Of a stretch of DNA of 52,295 bases, positions 24,059 through 32,062 are shown piece after piece. Within the stretch, counting starts at the first letter, position 1. Each line of letters opens with the position of its first letter. Below the pieces are notes generated by a model. It was not told the origin of the DNA and ran no database searches. It worked only from the letters and a program-made list of their open reading frames with translations. This DNA is from Candidatus Uhrbacteria bacterium (GTDB lineage Bacteria; Patescibacteriota; Patescibacteriia; 2-12-FULL-60-25). The position numbers and the translations under genes are program-made. The stretch covers positions 1 to 52,295 of the forward strand of contig CAIKOH010000044.1 in the NCBI GenBank assembly GCA_903829075.1, given 5' to 3'.

Positions 24059-24928
24059 ATGTCCTCACAAAAAGTTCGCAAAGTTATTATCCCTGTCGCT
24101 GGCCTTGGCACGCGTTTTTTGCCTGCGACTAAAGCCATGCCGAAGGAGATGTTGCCGATTATCGACAAGCCTGTCATTCAATATGTGGTGGAAGAGGCGG
24201 TGGCTTCCGGCATCACCGATATTATTTTGGTGACGAGTCACACTAAACGCGCCGTGGAAGATCATTTCGACGAAAATCAATCGCTGGAAGATTGGTTGAA
24301 AAAACAGGGCAAAACAGATCTCATAGAACAGCTACAGCGTTTGAGTAAGCTCGCGAATTTTATTTACGTGCGACAAAAAGGGCCGTATGGCAACGCCACA
24401 CCTGTGCTGAACGCGGCGCATTTAATCAACGATGAACCGTTTGCCGTGGTGTTTGGTGACGATGTGTACACGGGTGCGATTCCGCGTATGAAGCAGATGA
24501 TCGACGTGTATGAGAAATATCGTAATCCGGTTTTAGGGGTGATTCGTGTGGAGAAAAACGAGGTGAACCGCTACGGCATCGTAGACACGGCTGCCCAGGT
24601 TGAACCGCGGGTGTATCAGTGTCGTGATGTGGTGGAAAAACCCTCGCCGGAGAGCACGCCCTCGTGTCTGGCCTCAGCCGCCGGATATATTTTGACCCCA
24701 GATATTTTTGAAGAAATTCAAAATCTAAAACCCGGACACGGCGGTGAGTACGTTACGCTTGATGCGGTCCGCAGTTTAATGAAAAAGCGCCCGGTCTACG
24801 CCTGTGAAATTGAGGGCGAGTATCATGACACGGGATCAAAGCTTGGATGGTTGCGCGCGAATTTGAAGATGTCTCTTGAACGAGATGATTTGAAGGACGA
24901 TGTGCGAAAAATGTTGAAGGAGTTGTGA
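24059..24928 (+). CDS. galU: UTP-glucose-1-phosphate uridylyltransferase
   Basis: The 289-residue enzyme has the nucleotidyltransferase signature VAGLGTRFLPATKAMPKEMLP, followed by FGDDVYTG, the sugar-binding VEKPSPE and the C-terminal YHDTGSKLGWLRAN. It makes UDP-glucose for surface glycans. It lies 9 nt downstream of ychF, so the two genes likely form an operon that ends at the terminator at 24953. Confidence 0.95.
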   Translation: MSSQKVRKVIIPVAGLGTRFLPATKAMPKEMLPIIDKPVIQYVVEEAVASGITDIILVTSHTKRAVEDHFDENQSLEDWLKKQGKTDLIEQLQRLSKLANFIYVRQKGPYGNATPVLNAAHLINDEPFAVVFGDDVYTGAIPRMKQMIDVYEKYRNPVLGVIRVEKNEVNRYGIVDTAAQVEPRVYQCRDVVEKPSPESTPSCLASAAGYILTPDIFEEIQNLKPGHGGEYVTLDAVRSLMKKRPVYACEIEGEYHDTGSKLGWLRANLKMSLERDDLKDDVRKMLKEL

Positions 24929-24952: not shown

Positions 24953-24986
24953 TACCCCGTGAGCTTGCTACGGGGTGGTTTTTTAT
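24953..24986 (+). terminator. Intrinsic terminator after galU
   Basis: Stem ACCCCGT/ACGGGGT with an 8-nt loop followed by GGTTTTTTAT. Confidence 0.8.
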
Positions 24987-25001
24987 CGCTTTTCTTTTTC
25001 A

Positions 25002-25018: not shown

Positions 25019-26437
25019 ATGAAATCTTTTTTTCAGAGAGTTCTTTCATTGACGGCGTTGATCGGCGCTCTTTCTTTGACCGGCGCTGGATGTACCAAGG
25101 CGCTTGATCCTGCGACAATGAAGGCTTCGCAGCCTGTTTCGTTGACGATGTGGGGGACGATCGATGACGGTACCGTTTATGGTGGTGTCATCAGCGATTA
25201 TCGTCGCGCGCATCCCAATGTGCAGATCAGTTATCAGCGCATCGCACTGGCCGATTACGAGCAGACGCTGCTTGAAGCTGAGGCCGAAGATCGCGGACCA
25301 GACATTTTTTTAATCAACCACGAATGGACGGGGAAGTATATGCCGCGGATCACACCTATGCCCAGCGTCACCAACGTGGCGTACTCGGTGATGACAGGTG
25401 GTTTACGGCCGCAGCAGACCTGGCAGATTCAAACAGATCCGGGAATTTCAATGCTGAGCTATAAAAACGATTACGCGGATGCAGTGCTGCAGGACACAAT
25501 TCGTACTGTCAGCGTGACCTCGGCTTCAGGGCACACCTCTTCACAGCCGCATATCATGGGAATTCCCGTGAGTTTGGATACGATGGCGATGTTTGTGAAC
25601 AAGGATTTGTTGAACACGGCCGGTATCCCGCAGGCACCGGCGACCTGGGGAGATTTTCAAACAGATGTAAAAAAACTAGTGAAACTTGATGCAACGGGTA
25701 CGATTATGCAGGCCGCGGCCGGGATCGGTACGGCGGAAAACGTCGATCGTTCCGTGGATTTACTGACAGTACTAATGATGCAAAACGGAACGGTCATGGC
25801 TTCCCCTGATGGGATGCCCGCGTTTCATTTAGTTCCACCCGAGCTTCAAGGGCAGCGTACGGAGCCGCCTTCGTATCAAGCACTTCAGTTTTATACCGAC
25901 TTCGCCAATCCAGCAAAGGACGTGTACACCTGGAATAAGCAGCAGCCAGATGCGTTAGATGAATTCATTGCCGGCAAGAGCGCCTTCTTCTTTGGGTATT
26001 CGTATGATCTGCCCGTGATTCGTGCGCGCGCGCCGCAGCTGAACCTTTCGATTGCGGCTCTGCCTCAGATTCAAGGGAATCCGGTGCGCAATATTGCGAA
26101 CTATTGGTATTGGGTTGTGGCAAAGAAAAGTCAGAATCAGGATGTCTCATGGAATTTCTTAAACTTTTTAGCTCAGCCTGCAGAAACGCAAAAAATATTG
26201 AATGTGGTAAAACGTCCCTCTGCGCGCAAGAGCCTGCTCGCTTCACAGGCGAATGATGAGGACGTGAGCGTGTTTGCTTCGCAAGTGTTGACCGCGGCAA
26301 CCTGGTATCAAGGATCTGATGCCCGAACCATGGAGGCGGCGTTAAGCGGATTGATCAATAATTCGCTTGCGGGTACCCCCGTGGATCAAGCCATGCGTTT
26401 TGCTGTTGATACGGTTGCGCAAACGATCCATCCATAG
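25019..26437 (+). CDS. Extracellular solute-binding lipoprotein (ABC sugar-binding type)
   Basis: The 472-residue protein has a lipoprotein signal peptide with lipobox TGAGC (Cys about residue 25) and a family 1 solute-binding fold: SLTMWGTIDDG at the start of the mature part, GIPVSLDTMAMFVNKDLL, AGIPQAPATWGDFQ and FIAGKSAFFFGYSYD. Known relatives deliver sugars to ABC importers. No permease or ATPase gene is nearby, so the partner is elsewhere or the protein has another role. The start is set by the signal peptide and a leaderless promoter. Confidence 0.85.
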   Translation: MKSFFQRVLSLTALIGALSLTGAGCTKALDPATMKASQPVSLTMWGTIDDGTVYGGVISDYRRAHPNVQISYQRIALADYEQTLLEAEAEDRGPDIFLINHEWTGKYMPRITPMPSVTNVAYSVMTGGLRPQQTWQIQTDPGISMLSYKNDYADAVLQDTIRTVSVTSASGHTSSQPHIMGIPVSLDTMAMFVNKDLLNTAGIPQAPATWGDFQTDVKKLVKLDATGTIMQAAAGIGTAENVDRSVDLLTVLMMQNGTVMASPDGMPAFHLVPPELQGQRTEPPSYQALQFYTDFANPAKDVYTWNKQQPDALDEFIAGKSAFFFGYSYDLPVIRARAPQLNLSIAALPQIQGNPVRNIANYWYWVVAKKSQNQDVSWNFLNFLAQPAETQKILNVVKRPSARKSLLASQANDEDVSVFASQVLTAATWYQGSDARTMEAALSGLINNSLAGTPVDQAMRFAVDTVAQTIHP

Positions 26438-26544: not shown

Positions 26545-28188
26545 ATGTTTGATCTTTTTTCTCTCCGCGCACGTTTCTCTCCAGGGCTGTTTCTTTTTTT
26601 GAGCTGCGCGGGTTTGTTGTTGGCGGCTTCTCCGGCTGCAGCGGGCAGCTGTTCCTATACGTGTCATGACGGCACCGTGGCTCCGGGAACAGTCACTTGT
26701 ACTGGAACGGATGTGAGTTCGTGCACTGTAGCCGATGGGACGACGGCTTGTGGCACAGAACGGTATACAGCGGCGGATTTTTCCACGCATGCACCAACCT
26801 GTGTCGCGACCCCAGGCGCCGCATCTTCGGGAATGTGTAGCTACACCTGTGCCAATGGGGGCTACGCATTTGGAGTAACCTGTTCAGATGTGAGTGCCTG
26901 TACAGATGCTGATGGAACGAGGGTCTGCGGAACAAATGGATACACCGCAGGATCGAGCCATCCGGAATGTGCTTCGGGTACGGGATCTGGAACGGCTTCC
27001 ATGGCTGGATTAGGAAGCACGTCGGGTGCGACGGCTTCGAGTACACCGCCGGCAAGCGGAGCACAGTTTCATCTTCCCGGGTGTGCTGGAAGTGGAAACT
27101 GCAGTATTAACGACATTATCAACACGGGTGTAAGTTTTGCGAATTTTTTGATTGGTCTTTCGGGCGCCGTATTTTTTGCGGTGTTTGTTCTTGCGGGGGT
27201 GCAGTATGTGTTTTTTGCTTACGACTCAAAGAAAGCAGGGGAAGCAAAAACCATGATGACTACGGCATGCGTCGGGATGCTGATCATCGTGTGCTCATCT
27301 TTGATCATGCGTTTTGTGAAGCAGACGATTGTATACGGGGGGACAACACCCGGTGATTTATGTTCTGCGCAGATGGGGGTGAATTTTTCCTGCCAAGACA
27401 CCACGGGATGGACCACGGCCGACAAAAGCGGATGCGTTCCGAGCCACCCTCCTTACTTGTGCCCAAGTTCTGCCGGATATAGTGCCGCAACTCGTTGTTG
27501 CCCGGTTGGTGGGACGGGTGTGACCACGCCAGCGAGCGGATCCTCTGCCGGTGGATCTTCAAGTGGATCCTCTGGTGGATCATCGGGCGGAGGTTCTACG
27601 GGCGGTTCAGGTGGAGGGGGTGGAGGTTCAACTGGTTCGACGTCAGCCCCTTCATCGGGTGCGTCTGGATCAGCGGCGACCTCTTGTAGTTGCGTGTGTA
27701 CGGATCACGCGGATCCTGCGACACCGGTGACCGGCACCGCGGATCTGACGGCGCAAGATGCGTGTACGGCGCATTGCACTGCGCACGGTGGTATTGCGAC
27801 GGGAACAAGCTGTGGAACGTCTGCGGCTGCGGGCACAACACCTCCTCCTCCAGATGGAGGCGTTGTTACGCCTCGGTCATCTGGTGGTGGTACTAGCACA
27901 TCAGGAACCTGCGTGTGTTATTATCCGACCACGGCGAGCGATATTACTGGGGCACGTGCAGCCTGTGTTGATCCATATTCCACCCCAGAATCAGTGCCAG
28001 CCGGTTTCGCGGGAGGTCCTGATCCGGCAACATTTATCTGTGCTCAAGCGGCGATTCCGGTGACGTCTGCGGGAGTGGTCACGGGTGGTATCTGTGATAC
28101 CGCCTGTCCGCCATCAGGCACGGTTACGGTGCCGGGTATTTCAACACCCGTGCCAGTTCTCAGTCAATTTATTCCTGCAAGTTCCTAA
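26545..28188 (+). CDS. Large secreted protein: Cys-rich repeats, T4SS-pilin-like two-helix domain, Gly/Ser linker, Cys-rich tail
   Basis: The 547-residue protein opens with a signal peptide (cleavage near AAAGS, residue 34). Residues 36-86 and 98-141 are two copies of a six-Cys module beginning CSYTC and ending GTxxCGTxxYTA. Residues about 186-265 form a TrbC/VirB2-like pair of hydrophobic helices with a short basic loop (DSKKAGEAK). A Gly/Ser linker (about 330-375) and a second Cys-rich part (CSCVC, CVCYYP) follow. It is the first of six consecutive genes with the same helix pair. It is likely surface-exposed and disulfide-bonded. Function unknown; a pilus or adhesin subunit is the best inference. 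Confidence 0.7.
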   Translation: MFDLFSLRARFSPGLFLFLSCAGLLLAASPAAAGSCSYTCHDGTVAPGTVTCTGTDVSSCTVADGTTACGTERYTAADFSTHAPTCVATPGAASSGMCSYTCANGGYAFGVTCSDVSACTDADGTRVCGTNGYTAGSSHPECASGTGSGTASMAGLGSTSGATASSTPPASGAQFHLPGCAGSGNCSINDIINTGVSFANFLIGLSGAVFFAVFVLAGVQYVFFAYDSKKAGEAKTMMTTACVGMLIIVCSSLIMRFVKQTIVYGGTTPGDLCSAQMGVNFSCQDTTGWTTADKSGCVPSHPPYLCPSSAGYSAATRCCPVGGTGVTTPASGSSAGGSSSGSSGGSSGGGSTGGSGGGGGGSTGSTSAPSSGASGSAATSCSCVCTDHADPATPVTGTADLTAQDACTAHCTAHGGIATGTSCGTSAAAGTTPPPPDGGVVTPRSSGGGTSTSGTCVCYYPTTASDITGARAACVDPYSTPESVPAGFAGGPDPATFICAQAAIPVTSAGVVTGGICDTACPPSGTVTVPGISTPVPVLSQFIPASS

Positions 28189-28194
28189 GTTTGT

Positions 28195-29319
28195 ATGTCA
28201 CGTTTTCTTTTTAAAAAAGGACGCTGGTTTTCAGCGAAGAATGGGGCGGCGCGTTCATGTGTGGTGAGCGCGCTGGGAGCGATTATTGGCGCCTCATTTC
28301 TTTTTGCGTTTGGATCGGCGGCGTTAGCGGATGATTGTACCTGTATCCTTTCCGATGGAAGTACGGCGGGAAGATATGTGGATGCTTGTGGGGCAGCTTG
28401 TACCACGGCCTGCACCGCAGCTGCTACAGCGGCCTCTTCGCCTGCCACAACCGTGACGGTAACGAGCTCGTCCTGCACCACGGCAAGCGGCGGCGCCTCA
28501 TTGCCTACCTATGCAGCGGCTGGCAGCGGACCTGGTACGTGCGAATTTGTGTGCAATCCAGCTTCTGGACCGAGCGCAAGTGCGCCGCAAGGATTTTATG
28601 GAAATTGTAGTACGGCTAGTGATTGTCGAGCGGATTGGGGAACGACTATTTGTAGCGATCCATCCATCGGTGCGAGTTGGACGAGCGCGGGAACATCGGA
28701 CTGTTTGGTGCCTGTAACGGGTTCTGGTTCCGGTACATGTGTCTATACCTGTGGTGATGGCGCGTCTGGAGCTGGGAGTATTCACTGTACGGCCGCAGGC
28801 ACGGAGTGTACGGCAGCGGATGGAAGAGCGGCCTGCGCCCCATCAACATGGGCCGGGACATCAGCCTGCGAGGCGAGTGCGGGAGCGAGTGCTGCGGCAC
28901 CCGCGCCTACGCATCACGCGGCTGCGTCTGGAGCAGGATCAGCCCCCGCAGCTCCAGGAGGAGGTGCGGGTGGAGCGCCTGCTTCGGGATCAGCTCCGGC
29001 TTCTGGTTCCGCTTCAACAGGAGGGGGTACGTCAGGTGCTGCCGGTAATGCGTCGCCTCCATCAGCGACCTTAAACAATCCGCTTCATACAACAGATTTG
29101 AATACTCTGATCGCGCGCGTATTGCGAGCGTTGACTGGTGTTGTCGGTTCAGTAGCATTGTTGTGGTTTGTGTGGGGCGGGATTATCTGGATGACCGCCG
29201 GTGAAAGCAAGCGCCTGGATGAAGCAAAGAGCGTGATCACAAACGCAGCGATGGGCCTGGCGATTATTTTCTTAGCGTACATGATGGCGAGTCTATTTTT
29301 AACGGCACTGCACCCGTAG
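28195..29319 (+). CDS. Secreted Cys-rich protein with C-terminal T4SS-pilin-like domain
   Basis: The 374-residue protein starts 6 nt after the previous gene. A long signal peptide ends near ALAD (residue 46). The ectodomain has CTCILSDG, CEFVCNP and a CVYTCGDG module close to those in the upstream gene, plus the STASDCRADWGTTIC motif. An Ala/Gly/Ser/Pro linker leads to two C-terminal helices (about residues 300-373) with the loop WMTAGESKRLDEAKSVITNA, typical of the TrbC/VirB2-like T4SS pilin family. No Shine-Dalgarno sequence; translational coupling is likely. Confidence 0.7.
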   Translation: MSRFLFKKGRWFSAKNGAARSCVVSALGAIIGASFLFAFGSAALADDCTCILSDGSTAGRYVDACGAACTTACTAAATAASSPATTVTVTSSSCTTASGGASLPTYAAAGSGPGTCEFVCNPASGPSASAPQGFYGNCSTASDCRADWGTTICSDPSIGASWTSAGTSDCLVPVTGSGSGTCVYTCGDGASGAGSIHCTAAGTECTAADGRAACAPSTWAGTSACEASAGASAAAPAPTHHAAASGAGSAPAAPGGGAGGAPASGSAPASGSASTGGGTSGAAGNASPPSATLNNPLHTTDLNTLIARVLRALTGVVGSVALLWFVWGGIIWMTAGESKRLDEAKSVITNAAMGLAIIFLAYMMASLFLTALHP

Positions 29320-29362
29320 AGGTGCAGGTGGGTGAAAAAAAGTCGTTGAATGCAAAAAAACT

Positions 29363-30244
29363 ATGAGTCATTTTCCCCCCAGAGTGTTTACCAGAAGGAA
29401 TTTTTTTCGAGGAGGAAGCGTCCTCGCACTTTTGCTGTCGATGAGCTTGTGGTACGCGCCATCCATTGCCTTTGCGAGTTGCGCCTGCAGCTGTACGGTC
29501 ATGACAGGTACTCGCATAACAAGTAGAACTACAACTCTTGACTGGCAAAGCTGTTCCATAGACGACGATTGCACGGTTCCTTGTACAACGGCCTGTCACG
29601 GATCTGGCCCCACGTCATCGCTCGGTTCAGCTACCTGCTCAAACGGTCCGCACCCACTTGGATCGTCAAGAACGTGCGCCTGTCAATGTGGAGATTTGCC
29701 TGCGAGACCATTGCGAGGATCAACCTGTGAATCGAATGCGGATTGTACGGGGCTCTGCTCGTCATGTTCCGACGGTTTAGGGAGATTGACGCTCTGTGTG
29801 ACCCCAGCGGAACTCTCTGCGATGCAGTCGGGTGGGTCGTCTGGCGCTGGTGGGCTCACGACCGCACCGCCGCCCACATCGGCGACCCCGACCGCTGCCA
29901 CACCTCCGCCGAACGTTCCTCTTCAAACGCCAATCGATCCACTCAATGGTGAATCGTTTCAAAAAATGATCGGGAATGTTATTCGTTTTTCTTTTGGAAT
30001 TGTTGGAGCATTATTTTTTGGCATGTTTGTGTATGGTGGTGTGGTGTGGATGATCGGTGCGGAGGACGCAAAGAGCGCTACCGCTGTACGCAAGACCATT
30101 CAAAATGCGGTCATCGGTTTATTTATTGTGCTCATGTCATTTGCGTTGGTGAATTTTCTTCTGTCGAGTCTTAGTGGAATTACCGGAGGGGGCGCAGGCT
30201 CTTCTTCAGCGCCAAGTACGACGACGTCTCCACCAGCGAGCTAG
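29363..30244 (+). CDS. Secreted Cys-rich protein with C-terminal T4SS-pilin-like domain
   Basis: The 293-residue protein has a signal peptide with a twin-Arg-like RRNFFRGG before the hydrophobic core and cleavage near AFAS. About 20 Cys occur in residues 40-150, including CACSC, IDDDCTVPC and SNADCTGLC. A Pro/Thr/Ala linker precedes the helix pair (about 195-275) with loop WMIGAEDAKSATAVRKTIQNA. A short Ser/Thr tail ends the protein. It lies 43 nt after the previous gene. The RR pair is probably just the basic n-region. Confidence 0.7.
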   Translation: MSHFPPRVFTRRNFFRGGSVLALLLSMSLWYAPSIAFASCACSCTVMTGTRITSRTTTLDWQSCSIDDDCTVPCTTACHGSGPTSSLGSATCSNGPHPLGSSRTCACQCGDLPARPLRGSTCESNADCTGLCSSCSDGLGRLTLCVTPAELSAMQSGGSSGAGGLTTAPPPTSATPTAATPPPNVPLQTPIDPLNGESFQKMIGNVIRFSFGIVGALFFGMFVYGGVVWMIGAEDAKSATAVRKTIQNAVIGLFIVLMSFALVNFLLSSLSGITGGGAGSSSAPSTTTSPPAS

Positions 30245-30371
30245 TTTTTAAAAAAGTTACACACAGACGACGATTGACACGCATACCGCGTGAAATGTGA
30301 GTGTGGTACACTGCGTTTGTTCGTGACGATATTATGGTTCGATCTTTTACGTTGAAAGGAGGTGACATAAC
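30245..30371. other. Gap inside the pilin-like cluster with possible internal promoter
   Basis: This 127-nt gap holds TTGACA (30274-30279), a small CACGC/GCGTG hairpin and a TACACT box (30307-30312), but their spacing is not ideal. It ends in the strong ribosome-binding site of the next gene. A separate promoter for the three downstream pilin genes is plausible. Confidence 0.35.
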
Positions 30372-30791
30372 ATGACCTTACACATGAAACGGGCGATAAC
30401 CTGGTGTGCTTCGCTTGCTCTTCTGAGCATGACGATGTTGCCGACCCTTGCGTCAGCTCAAACGGCCCCAACCCCTCCATTGACGACAAACGACCTTGGG
30501 GTGAATGCAGTTGCACAAAGTGGATTGGTGTTGCAAGGCGGAGACGTTCGACAAACAGCGGCGCGTATCATCAATGTTGCCTTAGGATTCTTAGGCATCA
30601 TCGCGGTAGTGATCGTATTGGTAGGTGGTTTCAAATACATGCTTTCTGGTGGTAGTGAAGAAAAGACAGCTGAAGCGCGTAATTTGATCTTCTCAGGCAT
30701 CATTGGCTTGGCCATCATCTTGTCTGCGTGGGCGATCACGAGTTTCGTTATCACGAGTTTGATCAGTGCCACCTCAACTCCGACGAGTTAA
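30372..30791 (+). CDS. Compact T4SS-pilin-like protein (TrbC/VirB2 type)
   Basis: The 139-residue protein is the minimal form: signal peptide (cleavage near ASAQ, residue 29), a short Pro/Thr spacer, then two helices with the loop YMLSGGSEEKTAEARNLIFSG and the end GLAIILSAWAITSFVITSL. It has no Cys-rich part. AAAGGAGGTGA lies a few nt before the ATG, the strongest ribosome-binding site in the cluster, so it may be the major subunit. The next gene follows after 11 nt. Confidence 0.8.
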   Translation: MTLHMKRAITWCASLALLSMTMLPTLASAQTAPTPPLTTNDLGVNAVAQSGLVLQGGDVRQTAARIINVALGFLGIIAVVIVLVGGFKYMLSGGSEEKTAEARNLIFSGIIGLAIILSAWAITSFVITSLISATSTPTS

Positions 30792-30802
30792 TCTTCGATC
30801 AC

Positions 30803-31534
30803 ATGTCTTCACCTGTTTCACGTTTTGTGTACGCATGTCTGGGGCTGGCAACATTGCTGGTTCCGGTTTCTGCGTTCGCGCAACTGACCGCCATTCAACA
30901 AGGGGTGAACAGTACGGCTCAACAGGCCGGGTTCGCGACCGATAGTTGTAATGGTGTTGGGTGTTTGTACGGTATCATCGGCGTAGCGATTAACGTCGCC
31001 TTGGGTTTCTCTGGCGTTCTCTTGCTCGGCATTCTCGTCTATGCAGGATTCAAGTGGATGACGTCAGATGGCGAGAAGGGCGCCAGTGAAGCGCGCGGCA
31101 TGATTAAAAATGCCATCGGCGGATTAATTCTGCTTGCCTCGGCCTATGCGATCAGCACCTTTGTGATGTCGCAGCTTGGAACGTTGGTGAGCGGAGGAGG
31201 TGCGGGGGCGGGAACGACGAGTTCGGGAGCGGCTGGATCATGTACCCCGGGTACATCAGGATGTACAGCGGCCACCCCTCCGACGGGTTCTGGCACGTGT
31301 TATTGCGTGACGGGTTCCGTAACGCCGGCTACCCCTCCTGCCACTGCTGGTACCTGCGCATCTGGATCGCCAACAACGGACCCAGGACATGGTAGCGATT
31401 GTGTTCGACCGGCTGCTTCGAGCGATCTTTCGGGCGTAGCAACCTCTCTCCCATCGAGCTGTTCGACCTCAGCCGATTGTATGCGTCCATCGTCGATATG
31501 TACCTCGCTCTATTGTTCGGGAGGATCGTCGTGA
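30803..31534 (+). CDS. T4SS-pilin-like protein with Cys-rich C-terminal tail
   Basis: The 243-residue protein has a signal peptide (cleavage near AFAQ) and a pair of helices with the loop WMTSDGEKGASEARGMIKNA (about residues 90-110). A Gly/Ala/Thr linker leads to a tail with about ten Cys, ending in STSADCMRPSSIC and LYCSGGSS. The pilin part is nearly a copy of the next gene's, so the two are recent duplicates that differ in the tail. The ATG at 30803 is set by the signal peptide. Confidence 0.75.
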   Translation: MSSPVSRFVYACLGLATLLVPVSAFAQLTAIQQGVNSTAQQAGFATDSCNGVGCLYGIIGVAINVALGFSGVLLLGILVYAGFKWMTSDGEKGASEARGMIKNAIGGLILLASAYAISTFVMSQLGTLVSGGGAGAGTTSSGAAGSCTPGTSGCTAATPPTGSGTCYCVTGSVTPATPPATAGTCASGSPTTDPGHGSDCVRPAASSDLSGVATSLPSSCSTSADCMRPSSICTSLYCSGGSS

Positions 31535-31580
31535 TGGTGGGGGATGAGAGAAAATCTTTTTGGAATAATTTATTTTGCGT

Positions 31581-32006
31581 ATGAAAAAACTAAATCGAAT
31601 ATTGGCGCAAGTAGGAGTGACGGTAGCGGTTCTATCCGCGCCTTTGGCAGCCATGGCAACTCTTCCGAGCCCATTTGCTCCAGGAGGATCGGGAGCCACG
31701 GCTTTAAATGGCGTGGGAGGCGCTGCCTTTGGTTCGACAGCATGTACAGGATCAGCCTGTTTGTACAGCATTATTGGTAACGTGATTAACGTTGCCTTGA
31801 GCTTCATGGGCGTGGTCGTGTTGTTTTACTTCTTGTGGGCAGGTTGGAAGTGGATGACGTCAGACGGCGAAAAAGGCGCCGGCGAAGCACGTGTCATGAT
31901 GAGAAACGCCGTCATTGGTTTGATCATCATTGTTGCCTCGTATAGCATTTCTAGTTTCGTGATGGCCCAATTGGTCGCGGTCACTACCGGAACTCCAGCT
32001 CCGTAA
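31581..32006 (+). CDS. Compact T4SS-pilin-like protein (TrbC/VirB2 type)
   Basis: The 141-residue protein has a signal peptide (cleavage near AMAT), a short spacer with the pair CTGSAC also seen in the upstream paralogue (CNGVGC), and two helices with the loop WMTSDGEKGAGEARVMMRNA and end SYSISSFVMAQL. No Cys-rich extension. The ATG at 31581 fits the signal peptide better than the TTG at 31575. It is the last gene of the cluster, followed by a terminator. Confidence 0.8.
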   Translation: MKKLNRILAQVGVTVAVLSAPLAAMATLPSPFAPGGSGATALNGVGGAAFGSTACTGSACLYSIIGNVINVALSFMGVVVLFYFLWAGWKWMTSDGEKGAGEARVMMRNAVIGLIIIVASYSISSFVMAQLVAVTTGTPAP

Positions 32007-32026
32007 TTATTCGCTGCGCAGCGAAG

Positions 32027-32062
32027 CAAAACACTCTGTATCAACAGGGTGTTTTGTTATTG
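32027..32062 (+). terminator. Intrinsic terminator ending the pilin-like cluster
   Basis: Stem AAAACACTCTG/CAGGGTGTTTT with a 6-nt loop followed by GTTATT. Confidence 0.75.

Follow-up and report, generated by a model that had tools for sequence, protein, structure and literature searches.

The closest described counterparts of the locus considered here are the tandem pilin arrays of the Patescibacteria. According to PMC12102498, 441 arrays of 2-11 VirB2-like pilins were recorded in this phylum and the pilin array was likened to Bartonella Trw, with the copies serving variation; the same paper refers to Gram-positive MPF_FATA systems without major pilins and cites the archaeal Ced T4SS-derived system, which imports DNA. 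Southlakia cannot grow as an epibiont without its cluster of six pilins (PMC10633639, PMC12857230). Because such Patescibacterial arrays and the Southlakia cluster are published, the existence of an array of this kind is not new, and a preliminary interpretation made from the nucleotides alone (the sequence-only reading), which took the arrangement to be undescribed, was mistaken as regards the array itself. What appears to be new in the literature searched is a division of labour among the pilins and the linkage of the array to a solute-binding lipoprotein (SBP).

The arrays of PMC12102498 belong to the same PF18895 family as the proteins analysed here and consist likewise of tandem, sequence-divergent pilins in the same phylum; the role proposed there is variation, an SBP is not mentioned in the text, and the passages considered contain neither a division into major and minor pilins nor a fixed order, nor do they report Cys-rich ectodomains or giants with a pilin domain. 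The Southlakia epibionticum T4SS (SEML1_0006-0019) combines, as here, six VirB2-like pilins with an MPF_FATA-like T4SS, but its pilins lie inside the T4SS cluster, whereas the Uhrbacteria pilins occupy a separate locus behind an SBP gene. The TrbC/VirB2 pilins of conjugative plasmids (PF04956) share the signal peptide, the two-helix hairpin, and the short charged loop; however, the profile match is not significant, and several Uhrbacteria members carry large ectodomains. The best NCBIfam match, below its cut-off, is Mbov_0395 (NF045849), a pilin-like conjugal transfer protein of a mycoplasma ICE, and we know of no array or SBP association for that family.

The window, i.e., the whole stretch of 52,295 nucleotides that was analysed, comes from a Candidatus Uhrbacteria genome of 1.04 Mb and 98% completeness, whose source is a tiny, probably host-dependent bacterium. 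Six same-strand genes occupy positions 26545-32006, and the locus is composed as follows:

24953..24987, + strand: terminator-like hairpin with a T-run (9-pair stem, GTTTTTTATC tail), between galU and the SBP gene
25019..26437, + strand: orphan solute-binding lipoprotein gene (SBP_bac_1/SBP_bac_8, maltose/trehalose-binding-protein-like)
26545..28188, + strand: array gene 1, Cys-rich N-terminal ectodomain, T4SS_pilin hairpin at about aa 188-266
28195..29319, + strand: array gene 2, Cys-rich N-terminal ectodomain, C-terminal pilin hairpin
29363..30244, + strand: array gene 3, Cys-rich N-terminal ectodomain, C-terminal pilin hairpin
30304..30312, + strand: extended -10-like element TGGTACACT 5' of gene 4, corresponding to a TGnTATACT-like element that is conserved in relatives
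30355..30364, + strand: near-perfect Shine-Dalgarno AAAGGAGGTG preceding gene 4
30372..30791, + strand: array gene 4, minimal pilin, the most conserved member
30803..31534, + strand: array gene 5, pilin hairpin with a Cys-rich C-terminal tail
31581..32006, + strand: array gene 6, minimal pilin
32025..32058, + strand: strong hairpin 3' of gene 6 (61-nt stretch with MFE -25.9 kcal/mol, z -5.0)

The hairpins at 24953..24987 and 32025..32058 probably mark the start boundary and the end of one transcription unit, and between the former, which follows galU, and gene 1 there is a single gene, that of the SBP lipoprotein. Its start was set at the ATG 5' of the signal peptide and of a ..LTGAGC lipobox-like motif, while the open reading frame reaches to a GTG at 24959. 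The six genes had been placed correctly by the sequence-only reading, except that the starts of gene 5 (ATG 30803) and gene 6 (ATG 31581) are not the first codons of their open reading frames and were corrected. Its description of two minimal proteins, one with a tail, two with an ectodomain, and one with both proved exact, since the Cys counts before/after the hairpin agree with it: 15/18, 19/0, 16/0, 1/0, 3/10, and 1/0 for genes 1-6, the count of gene 5 being taken on an over-long open reading frame. Gene 1 encodes, 3' of the hairpin, a Cys module (aa 271-320) followed by a low-complexity Cys-rich tail. When gene 1 orthologues are aligned, a similar Cys pattern (C..C..C..CC) is seen both 5' and 3' of the hairpin, as if a small disulfide-rich module had been duplicated on both ends.

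All six proteins match the T4SS_pilin profile PF18895, with E values of 2e-4, 3e-10, 5e-8, 5e-10, 7e-5, and 3e-4 for genes 1-6 and with 59-71 of the 71 profile positions covered. Measured against the curated cut-off, genes 2-4 score above it and the other three (genes 1, 5, and 6) 3-5 bits below it, while all six lie within the limits given in PMC12102498 (i-Evalue < 0.001, coverage > 50%). The likeness to the TrbC/VirB2 Pfam family was not borne out at profile level: none of the six reached the PF04956 cut-off, and gene 4 was the only one listed (E 0.039, 14.6 bits against a cut-off of 27.9). In the comparison with NF045849 gene 4 (E 1e-9, 38.0 bits) narrowly missed the 40-bit equivalog cut-off, and the other five scored lower. 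The genome contains 11 T4SS_pilin domains, and because 6 of them fall within these 5.5 kb the clustering is not due to chance.

Hydropathy analysis agreed with the supposed architecture, an N-terminal hydrophobic segment and then two hydrophobic helices being found in each of the six proteins, which are thus predicted to form a two-helix hairpin after a putative cleavable signal peptide. AlphaFold2 models of genes 4 and 1 returned this hairpin, with two long helices at 59-91 and 96-135 in gene 4 (block pLDDT mostly 84-94) and at 188-223 and 228-266 in gene 1 (about 80-91); the Cys module 271-320 of gene 1 was modelled with block pLDDT 72-89, and its N-terminal ectodomain and far tail with low confidence. 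Foldseek against the PDB gave nothing significant (best E 1.5 for the gene 4 model and 0.45 for the gene 1 model; among pili, 8dfu, a conjugation pilus from Aeropyrum, came closest with E 2.1), since helical hairpins lack distinctive features. A profile search of PDB sequences and a tblastn search of gene 4 against plasmids gave no match.

Arrays from 20 relatives were read for positional comparison, the named ones being mostly Candidatus Uhrbacteria, Magasanikbacteria, and Falkowbacteria, which we take to belong to class ABY1. The tree of pilin domains groups by array position and not by genome: for 13 six-gene arrays the position labels require 14 changes, whereas none of 500 within-genome permutations required fewer than 43 and genome labels need 68/77, a comparison that serves as a guide and not as a formal probability, since the genomes are related and hence not independent samples, the domain is short, and positions 5 and 6 mix in places. 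The support of single forks is modest owing to the shortness of the pilin domain. The permutation test excludes one array of another family and different order (L062); its inclusion raises the observed number to 18, for which there is no null. The recurrence of the six-gene order, posed as a question by the sequence-only reading, was in this way confirmed as orthology of the array positions across genomes.

The order of decoration is also fixed. In the set of 72 arrays (71 from named genomes and the window) genes with N-terminal Cys lie upstream of gene 4 in 112 cases and downstream in 2, whereas genes with Cys in the C-terminal tail only lie downstream in 58 cases and upstream in 13. Gene 1 orthologues share 22-32% identity, their ectodomains being strongly diverged, array length ranges from 2 to about 15 genes, and local duplicates (L057 genes 5-6, L068 genes 6-7) pair together in the tree. 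The loci L099-L147 of Magasanikbacteria and Falkowbacteria hold up to ~15 pilins, mostly with one strong-Shine-Dalgarno gene and with the N-Cys genes 5' of it.

One gene in each array stands out in conservation, ribosome-binding site, and promoter-like element. Gene 4 is 48-70% identical over the full protein among 18 aligned sequences across the sampled genera. Anti-SD energies of -11 kcal/mol or lower were found at the gene 4 homologue in 58/72 arrays and at 8/461 other array genes, an extended -10-like element precedes 53/72 gene-4 genes and 57/459 others, and the median upstream gap is 105 nt against 24 nt. Within the window the AAAGGAGGTG Shine-Dalgarno occurs at gene 4 alone; in the whole genome the pattern AAAGGAGGTG-N3-8-ATG is found once, at gene 4, and since a reversed control pattern also occurs once, the strength of this signal lies in its recurrence across genomes. 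Similarly, a scan for the -35/-10 consensus found promoters no more numerous than in shuffles, so that the promoter-like element of gene 4 rests on cross-genome conservation. Outside ABY1 many arrays again contain one pilin with a strong ribosome-binding site.

Because of its top conservation, the extended -10 element, the strong Shine-Dalgarno, and the ordered Cys decoration around it, gene 4 is probably the bulk subunit and the other five genes are probably ordered minor pilins. These sequence features suggest a stoichiometry built into the array, with gene 4 made in bulk and the rest in minor amounts. The expectation of one or two bulk subunits with decorated variants is supported by positional orthology and by the one outstanding gene per array, so that the sequence-only interpretation is supported in part; the product may be a pilus or surface array.

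The lipoprotein encoded directly upstream is of the sugar-binding type (SBP_bac_1 E 2e-23, SBP_bac_8 E 2e-21), its nearest solved relatives being binders of sugar, maltose, and trehalose. An SBP gene lies directly upstream of the array on the same strand in 43/53 ABY1 arrays with enough DNA. Among 12 non-ABY1 stretches chosen solely for holding an SBP, pilins follow it in nine (L160, L162-L165, L171, L172, L174, and L175; in L171 with one gene between), while L159/L176, L161/L177, and L173 have no adjacent pilins. Even where only two pilins are left in the array (L172, L174, and L175), the SBP adjoins it. Ten more stretches (L149-L158), picked for pilin and SBP matches on one contig, illustrate the arrangement and are not a test of it. 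Thus the SBP-pilin arrangement, judged from gene order, recurs across much of the phylum.

The usual partners of such a binding protein are missing. The window genome has a single SBP_bac_8 protein and, of the parts of an ABC sugar importer, the SBP_bac_1/8 binding protein and no BPD_transp_1 permease, while 14/14 control genomes were positive for the permease. It is likewise absent from 36/36 sampled family members (the window genome and 35 others), 53/57 relatives, and 248/287 phylum genomes. An SBP homologue is present, usually in single copy, in 204/287 phylum genomes, 168 of which lack the BPD_transp_1 permease on comparison of the two lists. From the absence of these permeases it follows that the SBP cannot serve in a normal binding-protein-dependent ABC importer in the lineage of this Uhrbacteria relative. 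The linkage between SBP and array could be frozen synteny, since galU is also conserved in the block, and co-linkage of SBP and pilins is not function. The galU gene itself lies at 24059-24928 of the window, and its homologues share the SBP-pilin stretch in 52 array loci and 11/17 non-ABY1 loci.

Among the window proteins scanned no VirB4, VirB6, or VirD4 was detected, just as had been read from the sequence. A T4SS machine is nevertheless present in the genome at a distance from the array, its core genes being on contig C18, where VirB4 (E 2e-29) and PrgI (E 3e-10) are accompanied by a TrsD-like 227-aa protein, an unknown protein of 523 aa, and a VirB6-like polytopic protein of 1031 aa. The last three have no Pfam match, so the names TrsD-like and VirB6-like rest on position and topology. 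The genome thus holds a VirB4 ATPase and VirB3/PrgI, as expected of a Patescibacterial MPF_FATA-like T4SS. No linkage between the array and the VirB4 core is seen in this genome or in any array locus of the ABY1 set searched with those proteins; in other lineages L157 is the one locus with a PrgI match.

The remaining T4SS_pilin domains of the genome are found on contigs C70 (two), C8 (two), and C61 (one). C70 (L016:1-7346, minus strand) encodes two long proteins that are conserved as a pair and carry a T4SS_pilin hairpin at the N-terminus, one of ~580-690 aa and one giant with Big_5, TIG, Big_7, and DUF4215 domains; such pairs are also present at L169:1887-14506 and L170:532-12645. Giants of 3,577 and 3,443 aa were verified to be free of masked bases, many relatives have open frames of ~3,300-4,100 aa, and the giant of the window genome (>1,826 aa) runs off the end of its contig. 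In genome G002 a supposed giant pilin of 14,266 aa was rejected, as 94% of it is masked N. C8 (L017:10704-14340) encodes two proteins that combine a Cys-rich ectodomain and a pilin hairpin with an enzyme-like C-terminus; of these, the second matches Peptidase_C39_2, and homologues occur in several non-ABY1 loci. On C61 (L018:6454-11150) a pilin with a Cys-rich tail is followed by a DsbA-like thioredoxin with CPFC that may form disulfides in the Cys-rich domains, and a divergently oriented SBP_bac_5 gene represents a second orphan SBP adjoining a pilin.

Taken together, we infer that the T4SS drives a heteromeric filament at the cell surface, which is coupled to a glycan receptor, and the whole of this explanation (gene 4 as major pilin, minor pilins, assembly encoded on C18, and an SBP receptor) is considered rather probable. 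The locus would encode the surface part of a Patescibacterial MPF_FATA-like T4SS machine, in which gene 4 would be the major pilin, with a promoter of its own and the strongest ribosome-binding site providing for bulk synthesis, and genes 1-3 and 5-6 would supply minor pilins that take up fixed places in this hairpin assembly. Both ends of known T4SS pilins point outward, and the minor pilins would accordingly present their presumably disulfide-rich domains, carried on one or both ends, to the outside. The VirB4, PrgI, TrsD-like, and VirB6-like proteins of C18 would assemble the pilins, and the product would be a hairpin polymer or an envelope complex of gene 4, at the base or surface of which the SBP would bind glycans. 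The upstream orphan lipoprotein may thus act as the receptor of the apparatus, capturing host-surface or host-derived glycans, which would keep the cell on its host or, with lower probability, supply material for uptake via the machine. Several findings count against this explanation: the hairpin models have no significant fold match in the PDB, array and VirB4 core are unlinked, galU is conserved in the block as well, and in some lineages the SBP has no pilins next to it.

Other explanations account for part of the same data. The array may consist of pilin copies amplified in tandem to vary antigens or host range, in the manner of Bartonella Trw and as read in PMC12102498; the ectodomain divergence (22-32% identity for gene 1), the spread of array length from 2 to about 15 genes, and local duplications such as those in L057 and L068 fit this idea, but the orthology of positions across genera already weakens it, and strong conservation of gene 4, a strong ribosome-binding site on only one gene per array, and fixed decoration order make it improbable. 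It is somewhat less improbable that the hairpins, instead of building an extracellular filament, stay in the membrane as rings, parts of a channel, or mere anchors from which Cys-rich, Ig-like, and peptidase domains are exposed at the cell surface. Fusion of the same hairpin to Ig/TIG proteins of 3,577 and 3,443 aa, which would be unusual for polymerising subunits, and to a C39-like peptidase speaks for such a role, as do the Gram-positive MPF_FATA systems without major pilins (PMC12102498); however, genes 4 and 6 are undecorated, and the bulk-expression signals of gene 4 fit a polymer better than an anchor.

An import machine, in which T4SS and pilins form a conduit and the orphan sugar-binding lipoprotein delivers host-derived solutes, is to be regarded as unlikely to about the same degree. 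It agrees with the archaeal Ced system (cited in PMC12102498), which imports DNA, with the SBP-array linkage across the phylum, with the predominance of single-copy SBPs (204/287 genomes, 168 of them without BPD_transp_1), and with the second orphan SBP, SBP_bac_5, whose neighbours on C61 are DsbA and a Cys-rich pilin. Against it, galU is also in the block. Moreover, to our knowledge no T4SS takes up solutes via an SBP. The heteromeric filament with gene 4 as its major pilin remains the preferred explanation.

It is not yet settled how bacteria as small as these feed on their hosts or keep hold of them, and the T4SS with its pilin cluster is among the few systems known to be essential for this. 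With a probable bulk subunit, ordered minor subunits, and a constant SBP neighbour the "pilin array" turns into specific testable parts: a protein to image, a tip marker, and a ligand to seek. More speculatively, and with a chance that we put well short of even, the SBP would have lost its permease and been re-used as a dedicated receptor of the T4SS pilin machine that captures, and possibly takes in, host glycans, in which case the SBP-pilin operon may be the core of host feeding or host recognition in much of the phylum.
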